A stretch of DNA of 39,336 nucleotides from an uncultured Clostridia bacterium (lineage in GTDB: Bacteria > Bacillota > Clostridia > Lachnospirales > Lachnospiraceae). The translations under genes were made by a program, and so were the position numbers. Positions 1 to 33,442 of this stretch are shown here, in pieces. The first letter of the stretch is position 1, and the number at the start of each line of letters is the position of its first letter. The notes beneath the pieces were generated by a model, which saw only the letters and a program-made list of their open reading frames with translations, had not been told where the DNA came from and searched no databases. The stretch is taken from NCBI GenBank assembly GCA_946629525.1, contig CAMOXU010000014.1:1-39336 (forward strand). Direction: 5' to 3'.

Positions 1-53
1 AATGTTTGAATTGCTCACACAATTCCATTCCGCACATAGTTTCGCAATTCCTT
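1..53 (+). repeat. Right terminal inverted repeat of a MITE-like element (cut by window edge)
   Basis: These bases are nearly identical to the right end of the element at 6916-7160 (7108-7160) and to the reverse complement of the left end of the copy at 11465-11804. The motif TTCGCAATTCCTT closes the end. The rest of the element would lie to the left of the window. Confidence 0.75.
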
Positions 54-60
54 ATAAACT

Positions 61-242
61 TTGAAGCCCGACATAATGACTTCGGATGACTATTTTGCAC
101 CCACTCATGCAAAACCGGCATTCGCGGGCAAGCTATGTCTCCTCTCAAAATGTAAATTTGAAGCCCGACATACTGACTTCGGATGACTATTTTGCAGCCG
201 CTCATGCAAAACCGGCATTCGCGGGCAAAATATGTCTCCTCT
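61..242. repeat. Two tandem 85-bp repeats (period 97) at the 3' end of the nifH-like gene
   Basis: Copies at 61-145 and 158-242 differ at only a few positions and are separated by a 12-base A/T-rich spacer. Each contains a small inverted repeat, TTTTGCA and TGCAAAA around 8 bases. The last two bases of the second copy are part of the stop codon of the NifH-like gene (241-243, minus strand). A third, diverged copy in opposite orientation lies at 33358-33442 in the carB leader, so this is a dispersed family. Function unknown. Confidence 0.85.
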
Positions 243-1026
243 AGTGATAAAATCCGGTCCGCTCCCGCTCCGCCTTCGGCGGGTCCGCGAGGAGCATCTC
301 CGCGAGGGAAATGAACTTCCTGCTCACCGGATGCTCCGGATCTCCCTCCACGACTGTCTTCCCCAGATCCTCGAACCGGTTGATCTCATCGCTTCTGGGG
401 ATGTCCGCGACGATCGGGACACCGATCCTGTCTGCGAATTCCCGCACCCTGGCTTCCTCATCCGGAATGTTTCTGCGGTTAAAGATCACCCCTCGGACCG
501 TCGCATAGCCCCGGTCCTCGAAATTTTTCACTGCCGTAGCGATATTGTTCGCGGCGTAGAGTGCCATTTTCTCTCCCGATGTGACGATCAGGACATCCTC
601 GGCATAGCCTTCACGGATCGGCGCGGCAAATCCGCCGCAGACGACATCTCCCAGCACGTCGTACAGCACGATGTCGGGGTTGATCCTTCCGAATACGTCC
701 AGCTCCTCGAGCAGATTGAAGGTCGCGATGATCCCCCGCCCCGCGCAGCCGAGCCCCGGCGTCGGTCCGCCGGTCTCGATGCAGTAGACTCCGCCGAAGC
801 CGGTCTTGCCGACATGTTCAAAGTCCGGCTCCTCGTCATGGTCCCGGTAGTAATCCATGACCGGTACAAGGGGCTCTCCGCCCAGCAGGTTGATCGTGGA
901 ATCCGCCTTCGGGTCGCATCCGATCTGCACGACCTTCTGTCCGAGGACGGAGAAGGCCGCGGACAGGTTGCCGGTCATTGTGGACTTCCCGATTCCGCCT
1001 TTGCCGTAGATTGCAATTTTCTTCAT
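241..1026 (-). CDS. NifH-like nitrogenase-superfamily Fe protein
   Basis: A 261-aa homodimeric ATPase of the NifH/BchL/CfbC family, which passes electrons from a [4Fe-4S] cluster to a component-1 partner with MgATP hydrolysis. Visible hallmarks are the P-loop GKGGIGKST (residues 8-16), the CDPKAD stretch (37-42), cluster ligands C94 in GCAGRGI and C130 in DVVCGG, and R97, the residue ADP-ribosylated in true NifH. Length is slightly short of the roughly 275-295 aa usual for NifH; the C-terminal tail is brief. AAAGGAT precedes the ATG. It is last in a five-gene same-strand cluster, 115 nt after a component-1-like gene. No nifB or other nitrogen-fixation gene is in the window, so I infer an electron-donating ATPase for a non-nitrogenase reductase or assembly scaffold, not N2 fixation. 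The family call is firm; the substrate is unknown. Confidence 0.93.
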
Positions 1027-1071
1027 GATTTTATCCTTTCGGTCGTTATAGCATCACAGAGGTTTGTTAAA

Positions 1072-1119
1072 AAATCTGCTGCATGGAGGTTGTGTGATCA
1101 TTCCGCACATAGTTTTTCA
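1072..1119. repeat. Mini-derivative of the MITE-like repeat between nifH-like and component-1-like genes
   Basis: The stretch joins a degenerate left arm (CATGGAGGTTGTGTGA) directly to a right-arm segment (ATTCCGCACATAGTTT), matching the two terminal repeats of the element at 6916-7160 with the interior missing. It fills part of the 115-nt gap upstream of the nifH-like gene. Confidence 0.55.
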
Positions 1120-1141
1120 TATATCTGAAATTGACAGAAGA

Positions 1142-2374
1142 CTATTTCGAAACACCGGACAGCGAAAGCCACCGGTCAAGCCGTTCGCCTGTCAGCACCG
1201 GCATTTCATTCTCATAGTATCTTCCGGAATACGCTGTGTGGGGCAGGGAAATGAACTTCCCCTCCTCCCCCGGAAGCAGCCTCCGATACAGCGGATCCGC
1301 TATGATCCGGTCCGCGATCCGGCAGGCCTCCCGAAGCTCCTGCTCATAGAGGATCTGCTCCTTTCCGGAAAGAAGCTCCGACGGAACACCGGGCATGGGA
1401 CAAACGATCCGGATCCTGCGAAAATCTCCGGACAGGGAAATTTCCCTGGCGAGCGCGTCTCCGAGGACCGGCTCTCCGATGATGAGGAGCTGCCCTCCCG
1501 CATCCGGGCCGTCCTGGCTTTCTGCCCGATCTTCTTCGGGAATCTCCTGCTCTTTCGTCTGCCCTCCGGACTCTCCCCTGCATGAAGCCGTTCCGGCCCT
1601 GGCAGCTTCCCGGAGTTTTTCACAGATCTCGCGGGAGTTCTCCCGCCCGACCGGGACTCCGACGACAAAGGGAGTTCCGAACCTCCGGAAGAGGACCTTC
1701 GCCGCGGCCAGACCGCATGCGCTCACGACCAGATTCACATCCGCATCCGCGGATGAAAGGATCCGGTCCAGTGTATTTCCCATCGCCCAGGTGGAGATCA
1801 CCGAAAATCCCTGCCCTTCGAGATACTTCTCCATCTCCCGGACGCTCCCGTTCACGGAAAAGTCGAGCGGCGTAGCGCCGAGCAGGTTGATCCTTATTCT
1901 GGCGGGGAGTGTAAAACGCTTCTGTCCGGCCGGGTGCACCATTTCCGCGATCTCCGCGAGCGCACCGCCCGCCCCGCTTATATAGCTGTCCATCCCGTTC
2001 GTCTGAAGCCCAAAAGACGGGATCCCGGTCCGGCGGCCGACGGCTTTGGCCACGGCTCTGAAATCCGTCCCGATGATATGCGGCAGCGGTCCTCCGCAGA
2101 CCGCAACGAACCGCGGATGCAGCTCCTCCGCCGCTTTTACGAGGTCGTCGATCAGGCGGCCGTCATTTCCGAAGATGGCATCCTTCTCAGTCAGTCCGGA
2201 TATAAAGACCAGACTGTCCGTATCATACCACCGCGGCTCGTCATGTGTATTATAGGTGGAGTTGCATCCCGACGCGTCGTGCATGACGACAAGCCCCCCG
2301 AGCTCGTAGAGGGCGGAGCAAAATCCGAAATTATCTGCCGAGTAGGTCGAAAGGACCCTCTTTACGATTCTCAT
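1142..2374 (-). CDS. Nitrogenase component 1-like protein, NifD/NifE type
   Basis: A 410-aa member of the NifD/K/E/N-BchN/B-CfbD family. The start chosen is the ATG at 2374, which overlaps the upstream stop as ATGA and has GAGAGG upstream; a GTG at 2392 would add six residues. Three Cys sit where NifD has its cluster ligands: C19 in FGFCSALYELGG, C37 in DASGCNSTYNT and C93 in AVCGGPLPH. The signature SGLTEKDAIFGND (59-71) matches the NifD TSDFQEKDIVFGGD region. I cannot find counterparts of the FeMo-cofactor ligands (NifD C275 and H442). A Glu/Gln/Gly-rich linker around residues 255-290 splits the C-terminal Rossmann part. It probably pairs with the adjacent 457-aa protein as a heterotetramer fed by the NifH-like protein (inference). 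Confidence 0.88.
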   Translation of the reverse strand: MRIVKRVLSTYSADNFGFCSALYELGGLVVMHDASGCNSTYNTHDEPRWYDTDSLVFISGLTEKDAIFGNDGRLIDDLVKAAEELHPRFVAVCGGPLPHIIGTDFRAVAKAVGRRTGIPSFGLQTNGMDSYISGAGGALAEIAEMVHPAGQKRFTLPARIRINLLGATPLDFSVNGSVREMEKYLEGQGFSVISTWAMGNTLDRILSSADADVNLVVSACGLAAAKVLFRRFGTPFVVGVPVGRENSREICEKLREAARAGTASCRGESGGQTKEQEIPEEDRAESQDGPDAGGQLLIIGEPVLGDALAREISLSGDFRRIRIVCPMPGVPSELLSGKEQILYEQELREACRIADRIIADPLYRRLLPGEEGKFISLPHTAYSGRYYENEMPVLTGERLDRWLSLSGVSK

Positions 2375-3744
2375 ATTCTCATCCTCTCGCACTGTTCCCT
2401 GCAGCCAAGAGCCTTCTCAGAGATCAGTTCTCTTACCTCCTTCGGGTGCAGCGCGCCTTCCGTCATCTGCTTCGCGAGCCTGATCATTCCCCGGAAGCCG
2501 TAAAGCCCTCCGTTCTCCACAAGATTCACAAAGTACTTCGTGCCGGTAAAATACGCTGCCTTCTGCCCGATCGCCAGAACGTTCCTGCCGCCGGCCGGAT
2601 TTCTCCTCTCCGCGGCCCGCATGCGCCAGTCCGTCATCGGCAGAATGCAGATTTCCGGCACTCTGGCTCTCAGATACTCGAAATCCTCCTTCTCCTCCGG
2701 GGAAAATGCGTCCGCATAGAGAATCCGGACCCGGAAGCCGTGCAGAAAGAGTCTCTTCGCGAGGGATACCGGCCGCGTCACGGCGGATGCGTCAATTGCA
2801 ATATCAAAATCCCGGAGGACTCGTGCGGCCGCATCGAACGCCTGACCGGCCTCCGCGGCGAGCGCTCTGCGGTCCGGAAGCGGTCCGGTGAAGCCGATGG
2901 CTTCCGCGAGACGCTTTTCATTGTCGAGCAGCGCTTTCGTCTCATAGACTGCCGGAAGATAGACAGGTTTCATCTGAAGCCTCTTTGCAAGGTCCTCCGC
3001 GGCGTACGAGACGATCGGATTAAAGTACACATTGGCCTCCGCCTCTCCCATCCGCCGGTATTCCTCGTAGGTCCCGATCGTCGGAAGCTGGCGCACGGTC
3101 ATTCCCGCCCCGCGCAGAATATCAAAGATCTCACTCTCCGGATCGATCTCGTAATAGGAACCGATCAGGTTGACTGCCCGGGGATTGCGGGGGATCGACG
3201 CATCGATGCCGCGGTAGAGCTGGCGCCACTGCATTTTTTCCGGAGAAAAATGCTGCCGCATCGTCGGAAGCATATAGCAGTCGATAAAATCCACCTCCGG
3301 GAACTTCTCCGCAAGGGACCGGTAGACCAGATGCAGGTCGATATTCAAAAAATGCTGTACACAGCTCGTATAGAGAAGCACACAGGTCGGGAGCGCGTCC
3401 ATCTCCCCGAGGATCTCCGAAACACCCTCGATGATCATGTCCTCGAGATCGCCCCTCAGAATGTGGTCGTCCGTGAACTCAAGCATCGAGAAGCGCTCCA
3501 TCGCCCCCATCTCCTCCGCGGACAGAACGACGCCGCGCAGACAGCAGCTTGGACAGACGAAGATCTGATGACTTCCGGGAATCAGCATGGAAGTGTGTGC
3601 GATCGTCCAGGTGCCGCGGGCCGGGGAGGAATAGACGAGCCCTGCCTCAAAGGGAGACGGGAATTTTGCATCCTGGATCCTGACCTGCGGATCCGTCTTC
3701 TTCTTTTTCTCTTTTCCGTGCGCATGCAGATCGATCAGCGGCAT
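2371..3744 (-). CDS. Nitrogenase component 1-like protein, divergent second subunit
   Basis: A 457-aa protein of the same superfamily but much more diverged. Candidate metal ligands are C64, C67 and C68 in FVCPSCCLRG and C128 in LLYTSCVQHF, which fall near the NifD C88 and C154 regions; the equivalent of NifD C62 is missing (Y38-S39-S40). The N-terminus is a basic stretch with four lysines (13-16) not expected in NifD or NifK. The middle resembles NifE-like Rossmann domains, for example LPTIGTYEEYRRMGEAEANV. CCGGAGGAG precedes the ATG. It overlaps the next component-1 gene by 4 nt and starts 30 nt after hydE, implying translational coupling and a stoichiometric complex. Expected role is the partner subunit of a reductase or cofactor scaffold; no cofactor-binding Cys/His pair is visible near the C-terminus. 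The superfamily call is good, but the D versus K versus E/N assignment is not possible. Confidence 0.82.
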   Translation of the reverse strand: MPLIDLHAHGKEKKKKTDPQVRIQDAKFPSPFEAGLVYSSPARGTWTIAHTSMLIPGSHQIFVCPSCCLRGVVLSAEEMGAMERFSMLEFTDDHILRGDLEDMIIEGVSEILGEMDALPTCVLLYTSCVQHFLNIDLHLVYRSLAEKFPEVDFIDCYMLPTMRQHFSPEKMQWRQLYRGIDASIPRNPRAVNLIGSYYEIDPESEIFDILRGAGMTVRQLPTIGTYEEYRRMGEAEANVYFNPIVSYAAEDLAKRLQMKPVYLPAVYETKALLDNEKRLAEAIGFTGPLPDRRALAAEAGQAFDAAARVLRDFDIAIDASAVTRPVSLAKRLFLHGFRVRILYADAFSPEEKEDFEYLRARVPEICILPMTDWRMRAAERRNPAGGRNVLAIGQKAAYFTGTKYFVNLVENGGLYGFRGMIRLAKQMTEGALHPKEVRELISEKALGCREQCERMRI

Positions 3745-3774
3745 ATTACTCCTCCGGATGTTCTTTACAAATAC

Positions 3775-4857
3775 TTAAAAGTCTGAAGTGCCGTGCCGGA
3801 CGAACCCGGCATGGTCGCCCCGCCCGACGGTCACATGGTATCCTATCCGCTCCATGCGCATTTCCATACAGCGCCTGCACTCCGCCGCCTCATCTCCGGT
3901 ACAGATCTTCCCGTCATACAGGAGATAATCTCCCCGCACAGACGCGGGGGAGAGGTTCGGCATCACGACATTCGCGCCGTTTTTGATCCCCATCTCCCGT
4001 CCGAGCGGGTGGATCGTTCCGAGGGCCGTCGTCGCAGGGAGAAGGGCTTCCGGGAATACGAGACGCAGGAGGGCGAGGAAGAACAGCGTATCCTCAAGCG
4101 TTCCCTTCGGGCAGTCCCGGAAGGGCGTGTCATGGTGCGGGATAAAGGGTCCGATTCCGATCATATGCGGCTGAAGTTCCCGCAGAAAATGAAAATCGTC
4201 CATATAGCAATCATCCGTTTGTCCGGGCGATCCGACCATAAAGCCCGCGCCGACCTGATACCCGATCTCCTTCAGGTCATAGAGACACTGCATCCTGTGC
4301 CGCATCGACAGTTCCGCGGGATGCAGCTTCCCGTAGTGCTCTTCATTGGCCGTCTCATGCCGCAGCAGATACCGCTCCGCCCCCGCCTCAAAAAAGCGCC
4401 GGTAGCTCTCCCGGCTCTTCTCCCCGATCGACAGGGTGACAGCGCAGTCCGGATGTCTTTCTTTGATCTCCGATACGATCTCACACACGAGATCGTCCGT
4501 AAAATGAGGGTCCTCCCCGCCCTGCAGCACGAAGGTCCTGAAATTCAGCGCGTATCCGCGGTCGGTGCAGTCGAGGATCTCCTCCTTCGTGAGGCGGTAT
4601 CGCCTGATCTCCCTGTTATCCCTGCGGAGGCCGCAGTAAAGGCAGTTATTTTTGCAGACGTTCGTGAACTCGATCAGTCCGCGCAGATAGACATCCTTCC
4701 CGTAAACGGAATCAGCCTTCCGCCGGGCTTCCCTTCCAAGAAGCTCCCGCTCCTCTTCGCCAAGGCTTTTGCGCATTCTGATCAGCTCGTAAAAATCGCT
4801 GTCCGGCAGAGTGCCGTTTGCGGCAAGGGCTGTGATAAGTTTTTCAGCGTATGTCAT
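3775..4857 (-). CDS. hydE: [FeFe]-hydrogenase maturase HydE (radical SAM)
   Basis: A 360-aa radical-SAM enzyme of the BioB/ThiH/HydE group. The SAM-cluster motif CX3CX2C is C68, C72 and C75 (NVCKNNCLYCGLRRDN). A second motif CX7CX2C at C319, C327 and C330 matches the accessory [2Fe-2S] site known in Thermotoga HydE, which argues for HydE over BioB or PylB. In known systems HydE acts on the HydG-made Fe(CO)2(CN)cysteine complex during H-cluster assembly. GAAGGAGG precedes the ATG. Here it is followed after 30 nt by nitrogenase-like subunits, not by hydF, hydG or a hydrogenase gene, none of which are in the window. It may serve a hydrogenase encoded elsewhere or, more interestingly, act in maturation of the nitrogenase-like complex (inference). 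Confidence 0.92.
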   Translation of the reverse strand: MTYAEKLITALAANGTLPDSDFYELIRMRKSLGEEERELLGREARRKADSVYGKDVYLRGLIEFTNVCKNNCLYCGLRRDNREIRRYRLTKEEILDCTDRGYALNFRTFVLQGGEDPHFTDDLVCEIVSEIKERHPDCAVTLSIGEKSRESYRRFFEAGAERYLLRHETANEEHYGKLHPAELSMRHRMQCLYDLKEIGYQVGAGFMVGSPGQTDDCYMDDFHFLRELQPHMIGIGPFIPHHDTPFRDCPKGTLEDTLFFLALLRLVFPEALLPATTALGTIHPLGREMGIKNGANVVMPNLSPASVRGDYLLYDGKICTGDEAAECRRCMEMRMERIGYHVTVGRGDHAGFVRHGTSDF

Positions 4858-4896
4858 GAGGCTTCCTCCTTCAGTTCCGCTCAGGCCGCAGGACCT

Positions 4897-4956
4897 GGGC
4901 GGGATTCAGGTCAGCGTGAGCTGACATCTACGGGCCGATTTCTGCACATTCCTGCG
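4897..4956. repeat. Copy of a dispersed hairpin repeat in the TM1266-like/hydE gap
   Basis: Contains GTCAGCGTGAGCTGAC flanked by GGGATTCA. In reverse orientation the same arrangement occurs at 25200-25252, where GATGTCAGC and GCTGACC are nested inside GGGATTCGG and CCGAATCCC. The two copies share most of about 55 positions. It occupies much of the 148-nt gap in the nitrogenase-like cluster. Confidence 0.6.
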
Positions 4957-5003
4957 CTCCCGGGCATCCGGCGGATCCCAGACTTTCCGGCGATCCGTCT
5001 CCC

Positions 5004-5255
5004 TCACTTCTTCGAAGGTGCGTAGACCGCCTTTGCGCTCACGCCCGGAAGACGGCCGAGATTTCCGGTCAGGGCATTGATCTTATCGACCGGCGCGCAA
5101 GCCGCAATACTGATCAGATTGAGTCCTGCCTCCCGGTAGGGAATGCCCATCCGCCCGATGATGTAATCCGAGTATTCGTGGAGCAGCTCATTGAGCCGGG
5201 CAACGGATTCTCCGTTTTCCACTATGATGCTGACCATCGCGATCCGATCGTCCAT
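5004..5255 (-). CDS. TM1266-type putative iron-only hydrogenase system regulator
   Basis: An 83-aa small protein resembling the TM1266 family (TIGR03959), a predicted ACT/NikR-C-like ferredoxin-fold protein commonly found beside hydE and hydG; its molecular function is not established. The pattern RIAMVSIIVENGESVARLNELL followed by GRMGIPYREAGLNLISI and the C-terminal GNLGRLPGVSAKAVY supports this. The second ATG at 5255 is preferred because AAAGG is six bases from it, whereas it abuts the first ATG at 5261. It is the first gene of the nitrogenase-like cluster, 146 nt before hydE, and has no DNA-binding domain of its own, so a ligand-sensing or assembly role is as likely as transcriptional control. 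Confidence 0.8.
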   Translation of the reverse strand: MDDRIAMVSIIVENGESVARLNELLHEYSDYIIGRMGIPYREAGLNLISIAACAPVDKINALTGNLGRLPGVSAKAVYAPSKK

Positions 5256-5283
5256 ATCCATCCTTTCTGCTGTCTCTTACGTC

Positions 5284-6915: not shown

Positions 6916-7160
6916 AGGCGATTGCGAAACGTTGTGCTCCATGGAAATTGTGTGAACATTCAAACGGCTTCCGCGCCAGGAACTTCTGATCATTCGTGCA
7001 GTCTGCGAAAAAGCATTCGCAAAAAGTACGAATTCGCTCCGCGAAGACGCGTGCTTTTTGCTCATTTCGCATCCTGCACTCATGAAGAAGTTCCAAGGCT
7101 TGTGCAGAATGTTTGAATTGCTCACACAATTCCGTTCCGCACATAGTTTCGCAATTCCTT
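6916..7160. mobile_element. MITE-like element, full copy (245 bp) with ~50-bp imperfect terminal inverted repeats
   Basis: The left end AGGCGATTGCGAAACGTTG is the imperfect inverse of the right end, which closes with TAGTTTCGCAATTCCTT; complementarity extends about 50 bp inward on each side. The core has no credible gene. The same core and ends occur inverted at 11465-11804, and lone ends occur at 1-53 and 7174-7200. No transposase is in the window, so mobilisation in trans is inferred. Target-site duplications could not be defined by eye. Confidence 0.75.
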
Positions 7161-7173
7161 ATCTTATCAGATC

Positions 7174-11436: not shown

Positions 11437-11512
11437 AACCCACCTCACATTCTATAATTTGCGTAAGGAATTGCGAAACTATGTGCGGAATGGAATTGTG
11501 TGAGCAATTCAA

Positions 11513-11604
11513 ATTATGAGAACCGCTTCGCGAACCTCATAATCATAATTCGGCCGATAAATCGGCCTTTTTATCGGAAGTTCTTTGCAGAACTTCCGAT
11601 AAGA
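11513..11604. repeat. Nested hairpin-rich repeat unit inside the MITE-like element
   Basis: Absent from the 6916-7160 copy. It contains ATTATGAG/CTCATAAT, GGCCGAT/ATCGGCC and CGGAAGTTCT/AGAACTTCCG stems. In reverse orientation the order and much of the sequence recur at 25297-25400 (CGGAAGCTGT stem, GCCGATTTTTCAGCCG, ATTATGATTA), so this is a separate dispersed unit. Confidence 0.6.
11552..11573 (+). terminator. Terminator-like hairpin within the repeat element
   Basis: GGCCGAT, two bases, ATCGGCC and then TTTTT on the plus strand. The two-base loop is tight, so a few base pairs probably open. No plus-strand gene directly precedes it. Confidence 0.4.
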
Positions 11605-33357: not shown

Positions 33358-33442
33358 TGAGGAGACCTGTTTTTCCCGCAAATGCCGATTCTGCATGCGC
33401 GGCTGCAAAACAGTCATCCGAGGCTGTCGGGTCAGATTTCAA
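33358..33442 (+). repeat. Third copy of the 85-bp repeat in the carB leader
   Basis: Aligned with the reverse complement of 158-242, it keeps GAGGAGAC, CCCGC, AATGCCG, GCGGCTGCAAAA, CAGTCATCCGA and TTTCAAA in the same order. It ends about 10 nt before the carB ribosome-binding site and would be part of the carB mRNA leader. Confidence 0.7.

Follow-up and report, generated by a model that had tools for sequence, protein, structure and literature searches.

The window analysed here is a stretch of 39,336 nucleotides which begins at base 1 of contig C14 (CAMOXU010000014.1, assembly GCA_946629525.1) from an uncultured member of the Lachnospiraceae; the genome of this organism is 82% complete and distributed over 163 contigs. 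Close to the contig end, five genes on one strand code for a TM1266-family protein, the H-cluster maturase HydE, two nitrogenase component-1 subunits (here named D1 and K1), and a NifH-like Fe protein (H). This cluster is probably part of an alternative maturation system for [FeFe] hydrogenases which replaces HydG, the enzyme to which the CO and cyanide ligands of the H-cluster are attributed (PMC9431212). The proposed replacement of HydG is well supported by genome comparison. With respect to the chemistry, we infer that cyanide would be provided via HypEF and that the nitrogenase-like pairs would supply CO or remodel ligands.

The distribution of the system was followed with a D1 profile, which matched 56 of 397 genomes from the window's own family. 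Thirty-nine of these (own genome included) were called D1 type, based on an E-value below 1e-84 plus the gene neighbourhood where seen. The other matches comprise 11 genomes of the H-D-K type (assigned by neighbourhood in seven cases and by score alone in four: G228, G301, G295, G244), a divergent one (G312), and five which were left aside (G105, G132, G167, G262, G285); D1 and H-D-K types are not separable by score alone near these values. The family comparison set contains 77 genomes, the 39 of D1 type and 38 D1-negative ones. The latter are the unmatched genomes up to G047, plus G209 from the same genus; unmatched genomes skipped for low completeness, contamination, or by choice are G001, G005, G006, G010, G011, G016, G018, and G020. 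At the class level, 22 of 391 genomes were matched: the own genome, 15 of D1 type, four of H-D-K type (E 6e-83 to 5e-91), G659 (H-D-K by neighbourhood), and one weak match; the match in G602 was left aside. A second set of 80 genomes unites the 15 D1 genomes, which belong to seven other families, with two D1 genomes from Lentisphaeria, G312, 16 H-D-K genomes, and 46 D1-negative genomes picked from the 369 unmatched ones at steps of handle number. The genome-wide search for HydF covered the family genomes.

HydG is absent (no match over the cut-off) from 53 of the 56 D1 genomes tested. Among HydE-positive genomes, it is found in 3 of 55 with D1 versus 50 of 51 without (Fisher p = 4e-25, for samples that are not independent; 6e-12 for the family and 1.5e-11 for the remaining families of the class when taken separately; the H-D-K genomes and G312 were excluded from this test). 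Within the family, HydG exceeds the cut-off in 3/39 D1 genomes versus 18/38 D1-negative genomes. HydE is present in 38 of the 39 and, among the D1-negative genomes, in exactly the 18 which have HydG. HydF was detected in 37/39 D1 genomes (truncated and just below the cut-off in G395, none in G175) and in 18/38 D1-negative genomes, namely 17 of the HydG-carrying set and G047, where HydF is split. An [FeFe] hydrogenase domain occurs in 39/39 and 34/38 genomes, respectively. Of the genes for which a preliminary description of this stretch had suggested a co-occurrence check, hydF and those with the hydrogenase domain thus accompany the cluster, but hydG rarely does.

The D1 genomes of the seven other families all carry HydE (15/15), and none carries HydG (0/15). 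Both D1 genomes from Lentisphaeria have HydE and lack HydG (2/2 and 0/2), as does the divergent G312. The 46 D1-negative genomes of the class have HydE in 33 and HydG in 34 cases, with HydE lacking HydG once (G460) and HydG lacking HydE twice (G580, G724). In the H-D-K genomes, the two are found together in seven, neither in eight, and HydE alone in G048. The [FeFe] hydrogenase domain was found in all 21 genomes tested for it (the 17 D1 genomes outside the family, the own genome, G312, G460, and G048). In five families (f1, f43, f14, f66, f5), members with D1 and no HydG occur side by side with members having HydG and no D1.

No HydG over the cut-off was found in the own genome, given its completeness of 82%, and a canonical HydEFG set is thus not seen there; its HydF is encoded on contig C4 (35989-37161; 522.4 bits, cut-off 325.55). 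Genome incompleteness was rejected as an explanation for the absence of HydG because the D1 genomes are mostly at least 90% complete (34 of 39 in the family, 15 of 15 in the class) and keep HydE. Matches of about 170-225 bits were considered as candidates for a diverged HydG; the three which were tested are all ThiH over the cut-off.

The order TM1266-HydE-D1-K1-H on one strand, as given in the preliminary description, is borne out by the open reading frames (ORFs) and by the profile scores (Table 1). The TM1266-family protein scores 104.4 bits (TIGR03959, cut-off 60.8) and HydE 554.4 bits (TIGR03956 equivalog, cut-off 254.6). According to the coordinates, 146 nt separate TM1266 from HydE, 30 nt HydE from D1, and 115 nt K1 from H. 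K1 likely starts at an internal ATG at 2374, which results in a 4-nt overlap with D1; the overlap is 22 nt from the alternative GTG start. As the window begins at base 1 of C14, the cluster is cut at the contig end. A pattern scan for close relatives across genomes of 84,980 species returned 10 related loci, eight from Clostridiales/Lachnospiraceae and two from Lentisphaeria (L006 begins within HydE; L008 and L009 are cut short and were omitted from some alignments). The gene order recurs in all six judgeable Lachnospiraceae/Clostridiales loci (L004-L007, L010, L012), and a second NifH occupies the position of HydE in the two loci from Lentisphaeria. The linkage of the five genes is not a chance event.

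Uncut relatives continue beyond H with D2 and K2, a further component-1 pair, and then with more conserved genes. These code for HypF, HypD, and HypE, above the NCBIfam cut-offs in L012 and L013, and a HypC-like gene precedes HypD. In the own genome, contig C16 (locus L044) opens with D2 (at base 84), K2, HypF, a protein of no known family, HypC, HypD, and HypE. From the gene order in the closest relatives, L004 and L005 (D1 88% and 85% identical), we infer that C14 and C16 join, which would make the window cluster the front half of a larger operon. HypC of L044 is above the NCBIfam cut-off, and profiles built here together with catalytic motifs identify all four proteins as HypC, HypD, HypE, and HypF. 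The N-terminal MC motif of HypC as well as the acylphosphatase and HHxAH motifs of HypF are present in 16/16 loci checked, the C-terminal PRIC of HypE in 14/16, the other two being cut by locus ends. The protein between HypF and HypC (L044 4957-6000) appears hydrophobic by eye, has no match in Pfam or NCBIfam, and has counterparts in L004 and L005; it was seen in these three loci only.

HypCDEF are the makers of the cyanide/carbonyl-iron unit of [NiFe] hydrogenases. The large subunit of such an enzyme (PF00374) has no match in the own genome, and it is matched in 5/39 D1 genomes of the family. That the Hyp genes serve a [NiFe] hydrogenase only was rejected as a general role, because 34/39 D1 genomes have no large-subunit match.

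HydE and HydF might instead use cellular CO and cyanide without HydG, with no more than a regulatory or metabolic connection to the nitrogenase-like cluster. In the absence of other maturases, HydE and HydF activate HydA to about 1%, and free CO or CN, which they accept, doubles activation (PMC9431212); some acetogens are reported in the same paper to have HydE and HydF with no recognisable HydG. In line with this, G460 and G048 carry HydE and neither HydG nor a D1-type gene. We nevertheless regard this explanation as quite improbable, because D1 and HydG form a near-strict either/or in two genome sets, because HydE, HydF, or both are physically linked to D1, and because the operon holds a complete cyanide-making Hyp set.

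The system occurs in two types. Conserved are TM1266, HydE, HydF (in the cluster or elsewhere), and module A, which consists of D1-K1, usually with a NifH of its own (Hx). Module B (H-D2-K2-HypF-HypC-HypD-HypE) is restricted to the full type, here type I, in which Hx, HydE, or both stand beside D1 in most loci. Type I accounts for 30 genomes in the family, 10 in the class, and 2 from Lentisphaeria (42 in total), none of which has HydG (0/42); in the family, it was recognised by a second, D2-like match (from fragments for G245 and G313). In the window's own clade, no Hx was seen beside D1, and the own genome has only one strong NifH. Type II (9 family and 5 class genomes, 14 in total) consists of Hx-D1-K1, with no D2-like match. 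Its loci carry an ATP-binding cassette (ABC) permease of the FecCD type, an ATPase, and a Peripla_BP_2 lipoprotein, with all three found in 13/14; the exception, G394, is cut by the contig start. The family scores of this transporter are far below every cut-off. Neither the permease nor the binding protein was found in any of the 21 type I loci looked at. HydE or HydF is present in 10/14 type II loci. In L134, the type II cluster tested, a TM1266 domain and the ABC ATPase form one fusion protein, and six more ORFs of such size match the TM1266 profile.

Several gene fusions were observed. D2 and K2 are fused into one reading frame in G203 (L050 3447-6011), and the same fusion is suggested for G071, G303, G368, G374, and G375, where the D2 match falls in long open frames (813-895 aa). 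In G601, Hx and D1 share one reading frame (L139 8708-10804), a natural fusion of Fe protein and component 1.

The nitrogenase-like proteins of the window score below the NCBIfam cut-offs of the characterised systems compared. For Nif, H reaches 298.8 versus 394.35 bits, K1 at best 62.2 versus 505.1 (NifE), and D1 none; D1 has no NCBIfam match at 0.001. For Bch, the values are 210.8 versus 345.15 (BchL), 201.6 versus 331.2 (BchX), and 42 versus 490.35 (BchB); for Cfb, 297 versus 402 (CfbC) and 33.3 versus 268.4 (CfbD). D1 and K1 pass only the broad Pfam component-1 family. Searched against sequences of solved structures, D1 has remote nitrogenase matches only (best 7.9e-5), and K1 matches NifD, NifE, BchB, and other nitrogenase-type proteins. 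Nitrogen fixation and a chlorophyll- or F430-type reductase were rejected by these cut-offs and by the tree. D1, K1, D2, and K2 are each monophyletic (bootstrap 100%, 99%, 100%, and 100%) and lie outside NifD, NifK, NifE, a NifN-position protein, BchN, and BchB, a placement which is limited by long BchN and BchB branches and by references without Mar, Isr, and Cfb. The position outside characterised clades, on which the preliminary description had made its reading depend, is thus seen with the Nif and Bch references used. In the NifH tree, the H proteins of module B separate from Hx, and the window's H groups with those of the full type, apart from Hx and from the NifH proteins of H-D-K operons. 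Hx falls within a larger group together with the latter; this group, whose inner branches are weakly supported, also includes the two references that are true NifH. A P-loop and the two cysteines of the Fe-protein cluster (positions 94 and 130 in H) are kept in 12/12 H and 11/11 Hx sequences. Conserved in 17/17 sequences are Cys64, Cys68, Cys128, Cys448, and His50 of D1 and Cys43, His38, and His50 of K1; D2 has four conserved cysteines and K2 two.

The closest relatives of D1 in the component-1 tree are encoded by the uncharacterised H-D-K operons with a FecCD-type ABC transporter. Such operons, the nearest relatives of D1-K1, were seen at L174 19959-26255 (Treponema saccharophilum plasmid pTS1), L055-L060, and L140-L142. 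This relationship speaks for the explanation that the cluster codes for an ordinary Group IV nitrogenase-like enzyme, active in sulfur assimilation or tetrapyrrole reduction, which stands beside HydE by chance. We give this explanation next to no weight, since the association with HydE and the lack of HydG recur in several families and in both phyla, and the 16 H-D-K genomes do not have that pattern.

HydE was analysed by a tree of 34 proteins, in which HydE from D1 genomes interleaves with HydE from HydG-carrying genomes. The tree requires 8 label changes, a number not exceeded in 307 of 500 shuffles; at least three of the changes are forced by well-supported branches. HydE proteins thus do not group according to their partner system. 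As the preliminary description had required, the link with HydE is maintained: HydE is over the cut-off in 55 of 56 D1 genomes, though it does not always adjoin D1; in the family, D1 lies within 8 kb of HydE or HydF in 22/39 D1 genomes. Among loci chosen for closeness of the genes, the order HydE-HydG-HydF was found in six of seven fetched HydG loci (G484 has HydE-HydG with no HydF in the 1.5 kb beyond), and four D1 genomes (G317, G191, G124, G281) show HydE-HydF without an intervening HydG. In six other D1 genomes, no HydF adjoins HydE.

Of the two options put forward in the preliminary description, action on or supply of an H-cluster precursor is favoured, and synthesis of a cofactor for the reductase by HydE is disfavoured because HydE from D1 and HydG genomes interleaves in the tree. 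A further explanation is that the nitrogenase-like pairs form a free-standing reductase which has its own Fe-CN/CO cofactor, made by HypCDEF and HydE, and takes no part in H-cluster assembly. Two DK pairs with NifH resemble the split between scaffold and enzyme in NifEN/NifDK. Sulfur compounds are the substrates of Group IV nitrogenase-like enzymes that have a radical SAM partner (PMC11423573). A reductase of this kind leaves unexplained why HydG is lost with HydF and the [FeFe] hydrogenase domain retained, HydE of D1 genomes forms no separate lineage, and many genomes have HydF within the cluster or close to it. HydF is not known as a scaffold for anything but the H-cluster. We therefore consider such a reductase unlikely. 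The preliminary description is thus supported in part. Its core, that a machine of the nitrogenase superfamily is linked to the biosynthesis of the H-cluster, still stands and has gained strength, but it had missed the larger half of the system (D2-K2-HypFCDE, located on a different contig), the lack of HydG, and the subtype with an importer.

Several observations weigh against a replacement of HydG by the nitrogenase-like system. The genome comparison is a correlation. Three D1 genomes, all of type II, do carry HydG (G224, G394, G356), and HydE occurs without HydG in G460, which has no D1, and in G048, which is of H-D-K type. In 11/14 type II genomes, both HydG and D2-like matches are absent, and module B is therefore not always needed. 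HydE and HydG are on different contigs in 9/18 D1-negative HydG genomes of the family, so that gene order is supporting evidence only. Five D1 genomes match the [NiFe] large subunit as well; the one sequence that was read is of the Ech-like kind and has the two CxxC motifs. The single [FeFe] hydrogenase homologue of the own genome, its sole PF02906 match (L164 700-2373 on C38, 557 aa), is of a sensor-like type and does not reach the subfamily cut-offs; its L1 motif is divergent, and its C-terminal part resembles a sensor, with a weak match of PhoR type. Finally, ten D1-negative genomes with no HydE, HydF, or HydG over the cut-off bear PF02906 ORFs with canonical or near-canonical H-cluster motifs (one hydrogenase being split over two ORFs). 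The presence of a hydrogenase therefore is, by itself, no proof that a maturase is needed, and it failed as a discriminator.

These ten genomes (G032, G039, G008, G043, G045, G003, G019, G022, G017, G037; loci L085-L094) represent a third class, with no known maturases. G460 has a divergent HydE (C35:8776-9774) and canonical HydA motifs, with neither HydG over the cut-off nor D1.

A mechanism for the proposed replacement of HydG can be outlined from precedents. The products of HydG are CO and CN, either free or in the form of an Fe(CO)2CN synthon, and the slight activation of HydA by HydE and HydF, doubled by added CO or CN, is a precedent as well (PMC9431212). Carbamoyl phosphate is activated by HypF, with HypEF as carriers of the cyano group (PMC4506123), and nitrogenase Fe proteins convert CO2 to CO (PMC9571451). 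Because of these precedents, HypCDEF are assigned to iron-bound CN and the reductases to CO or ligand exchange. HypF and HypE would convert carbamoyl phosphate into an enzyme-bound cyano group, which HypC-HypD would place on iron. The two ATP-driven nitrogenase-like reductases might then generate CO (e.g., from CO2) and/or remodel the Fe(CN)(CO) unit, resulting in an Fe(CO)2(CN)-type synthon such as HydG normally makes from tyrosine. HydE and HydF would complete the H-cluster in the usual manner. In type II, which has no module B, the FecCD-type ABC transporter may import a precursor. As a tentative proposal, the nitrogenase-superfamily pair could be a dedicated CO source or ligand remodeller, with CN from carbamoyl phosphate and Fe(CO)2CN delivered to HydE, and with type II importing an iron-ligand precursor. 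Alternatively, the system may act elsewhere in maturation (e.g., on the dithiomethylamine bridge or during insertion), the loss of HydG being a side effect. Genes do not reveal the exact step, and type II does without HypCDEF; it is, however, precisely the CO/CN-making protein that is missing, and the other machine known to make CN/CO is present in type I, which makes action elsewhere very improbable.

Table 1. Features at the start of the window
Feature	Position	Strand	Profile or basis
TM1266-family small protein, putative regulator of iron-only hydrogenase systems	5004-5261	minus	TIGR03959, PF21699
HydE, radical SAM H-cluster maturase	3775-4857	minus	TIGR03956
D1, nitrogenase component-1 (alpha-like) subunit	2371-3744	minus	PF00148 6.8e-14
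K1, nitrogenase component-1 (beta-like) subunit	1142-2392	minus	PF00148 3.7e-29
H, NifH-like ATP-dependent Fe protein, module B (D2K2) type	241-1026	minus	PF00142 1.3e-85
Short dispersed repeats at the contig end, separating H from the presumed D2-K2-HypFCDE continuation	1-240		repeat copies in the window

Repeats are present at the contig end. Positions 1-55 of the window are repeated at 7108-7162, with an inverted copy at about 11464-11513, and an 89-nt repeat pair (57-145 and 154-242) is located at the contig end. Together with 33359-33421, these are dispersed short repeats, partly inverted, with one family at the contig end.

Compared to the canonical HydE-HydG-HydF maturation, the system shares HydE and HydF (near D1 in many genomes), TM1266 in most loci, and the [FeFe] hydrogenase domain, and it differs by nitrogenase-like modules with HypCDEF or an importer in place of HydG. 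With the HypCDEF maturation of [NiFe] hydrogenases, which builds an Fe(CN)2CO unit, it has HypC, HypD, HypE, and HypF with intact motifs in common, but these are in an operon with nitrogenase-like genes, mostly without a large-subunit match. Two component-1 pairs with NifH-type Fe proteins are also found in NifEN/NifDK plus NifH, whereas D1, K1, D2, and K2 form clades of their own and are far below the NCBIfam cut-offs. The Group IV systems Isr, Mar, and Nfa likewise combine H-D-K with a radical SAM partner (PMC11423573); here the partner is HydE, there are two DK pairs and HypCDEF, and the scores stay below the CfbC and CfbD cut-offs. The H-D-K operons with FecCD/Peripla_BP_2 transporters resemble type II in the kind of transporter, but neither HydE nor HydF was found in the stretches inspected, and their presence does not consistently go along with the loss of HydG. 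Among the papers listed by searches of open-licence PubMed Central, we recognised none on this gene set or on such a replacement of HydG.

If true, a second, non-homologous route to CO and CN would link the cofactor worlds of [NiFe] hydrogenases, [FeFe] hydrogenases, and nitrogenases, and it would assign a function to a nitrogenase-like clade counted in 39 of 397 sampled genomes of the family. It would also provide a testable answer to how some bacteria of the gut and rumen could mature [FeFe] hydrogenases in the absence of HydG; the H2 of these bacteria is of importance for fermentation and methane. Counts based on HydG may thus underestimate the number of functional [FeFe] hydrogenases.

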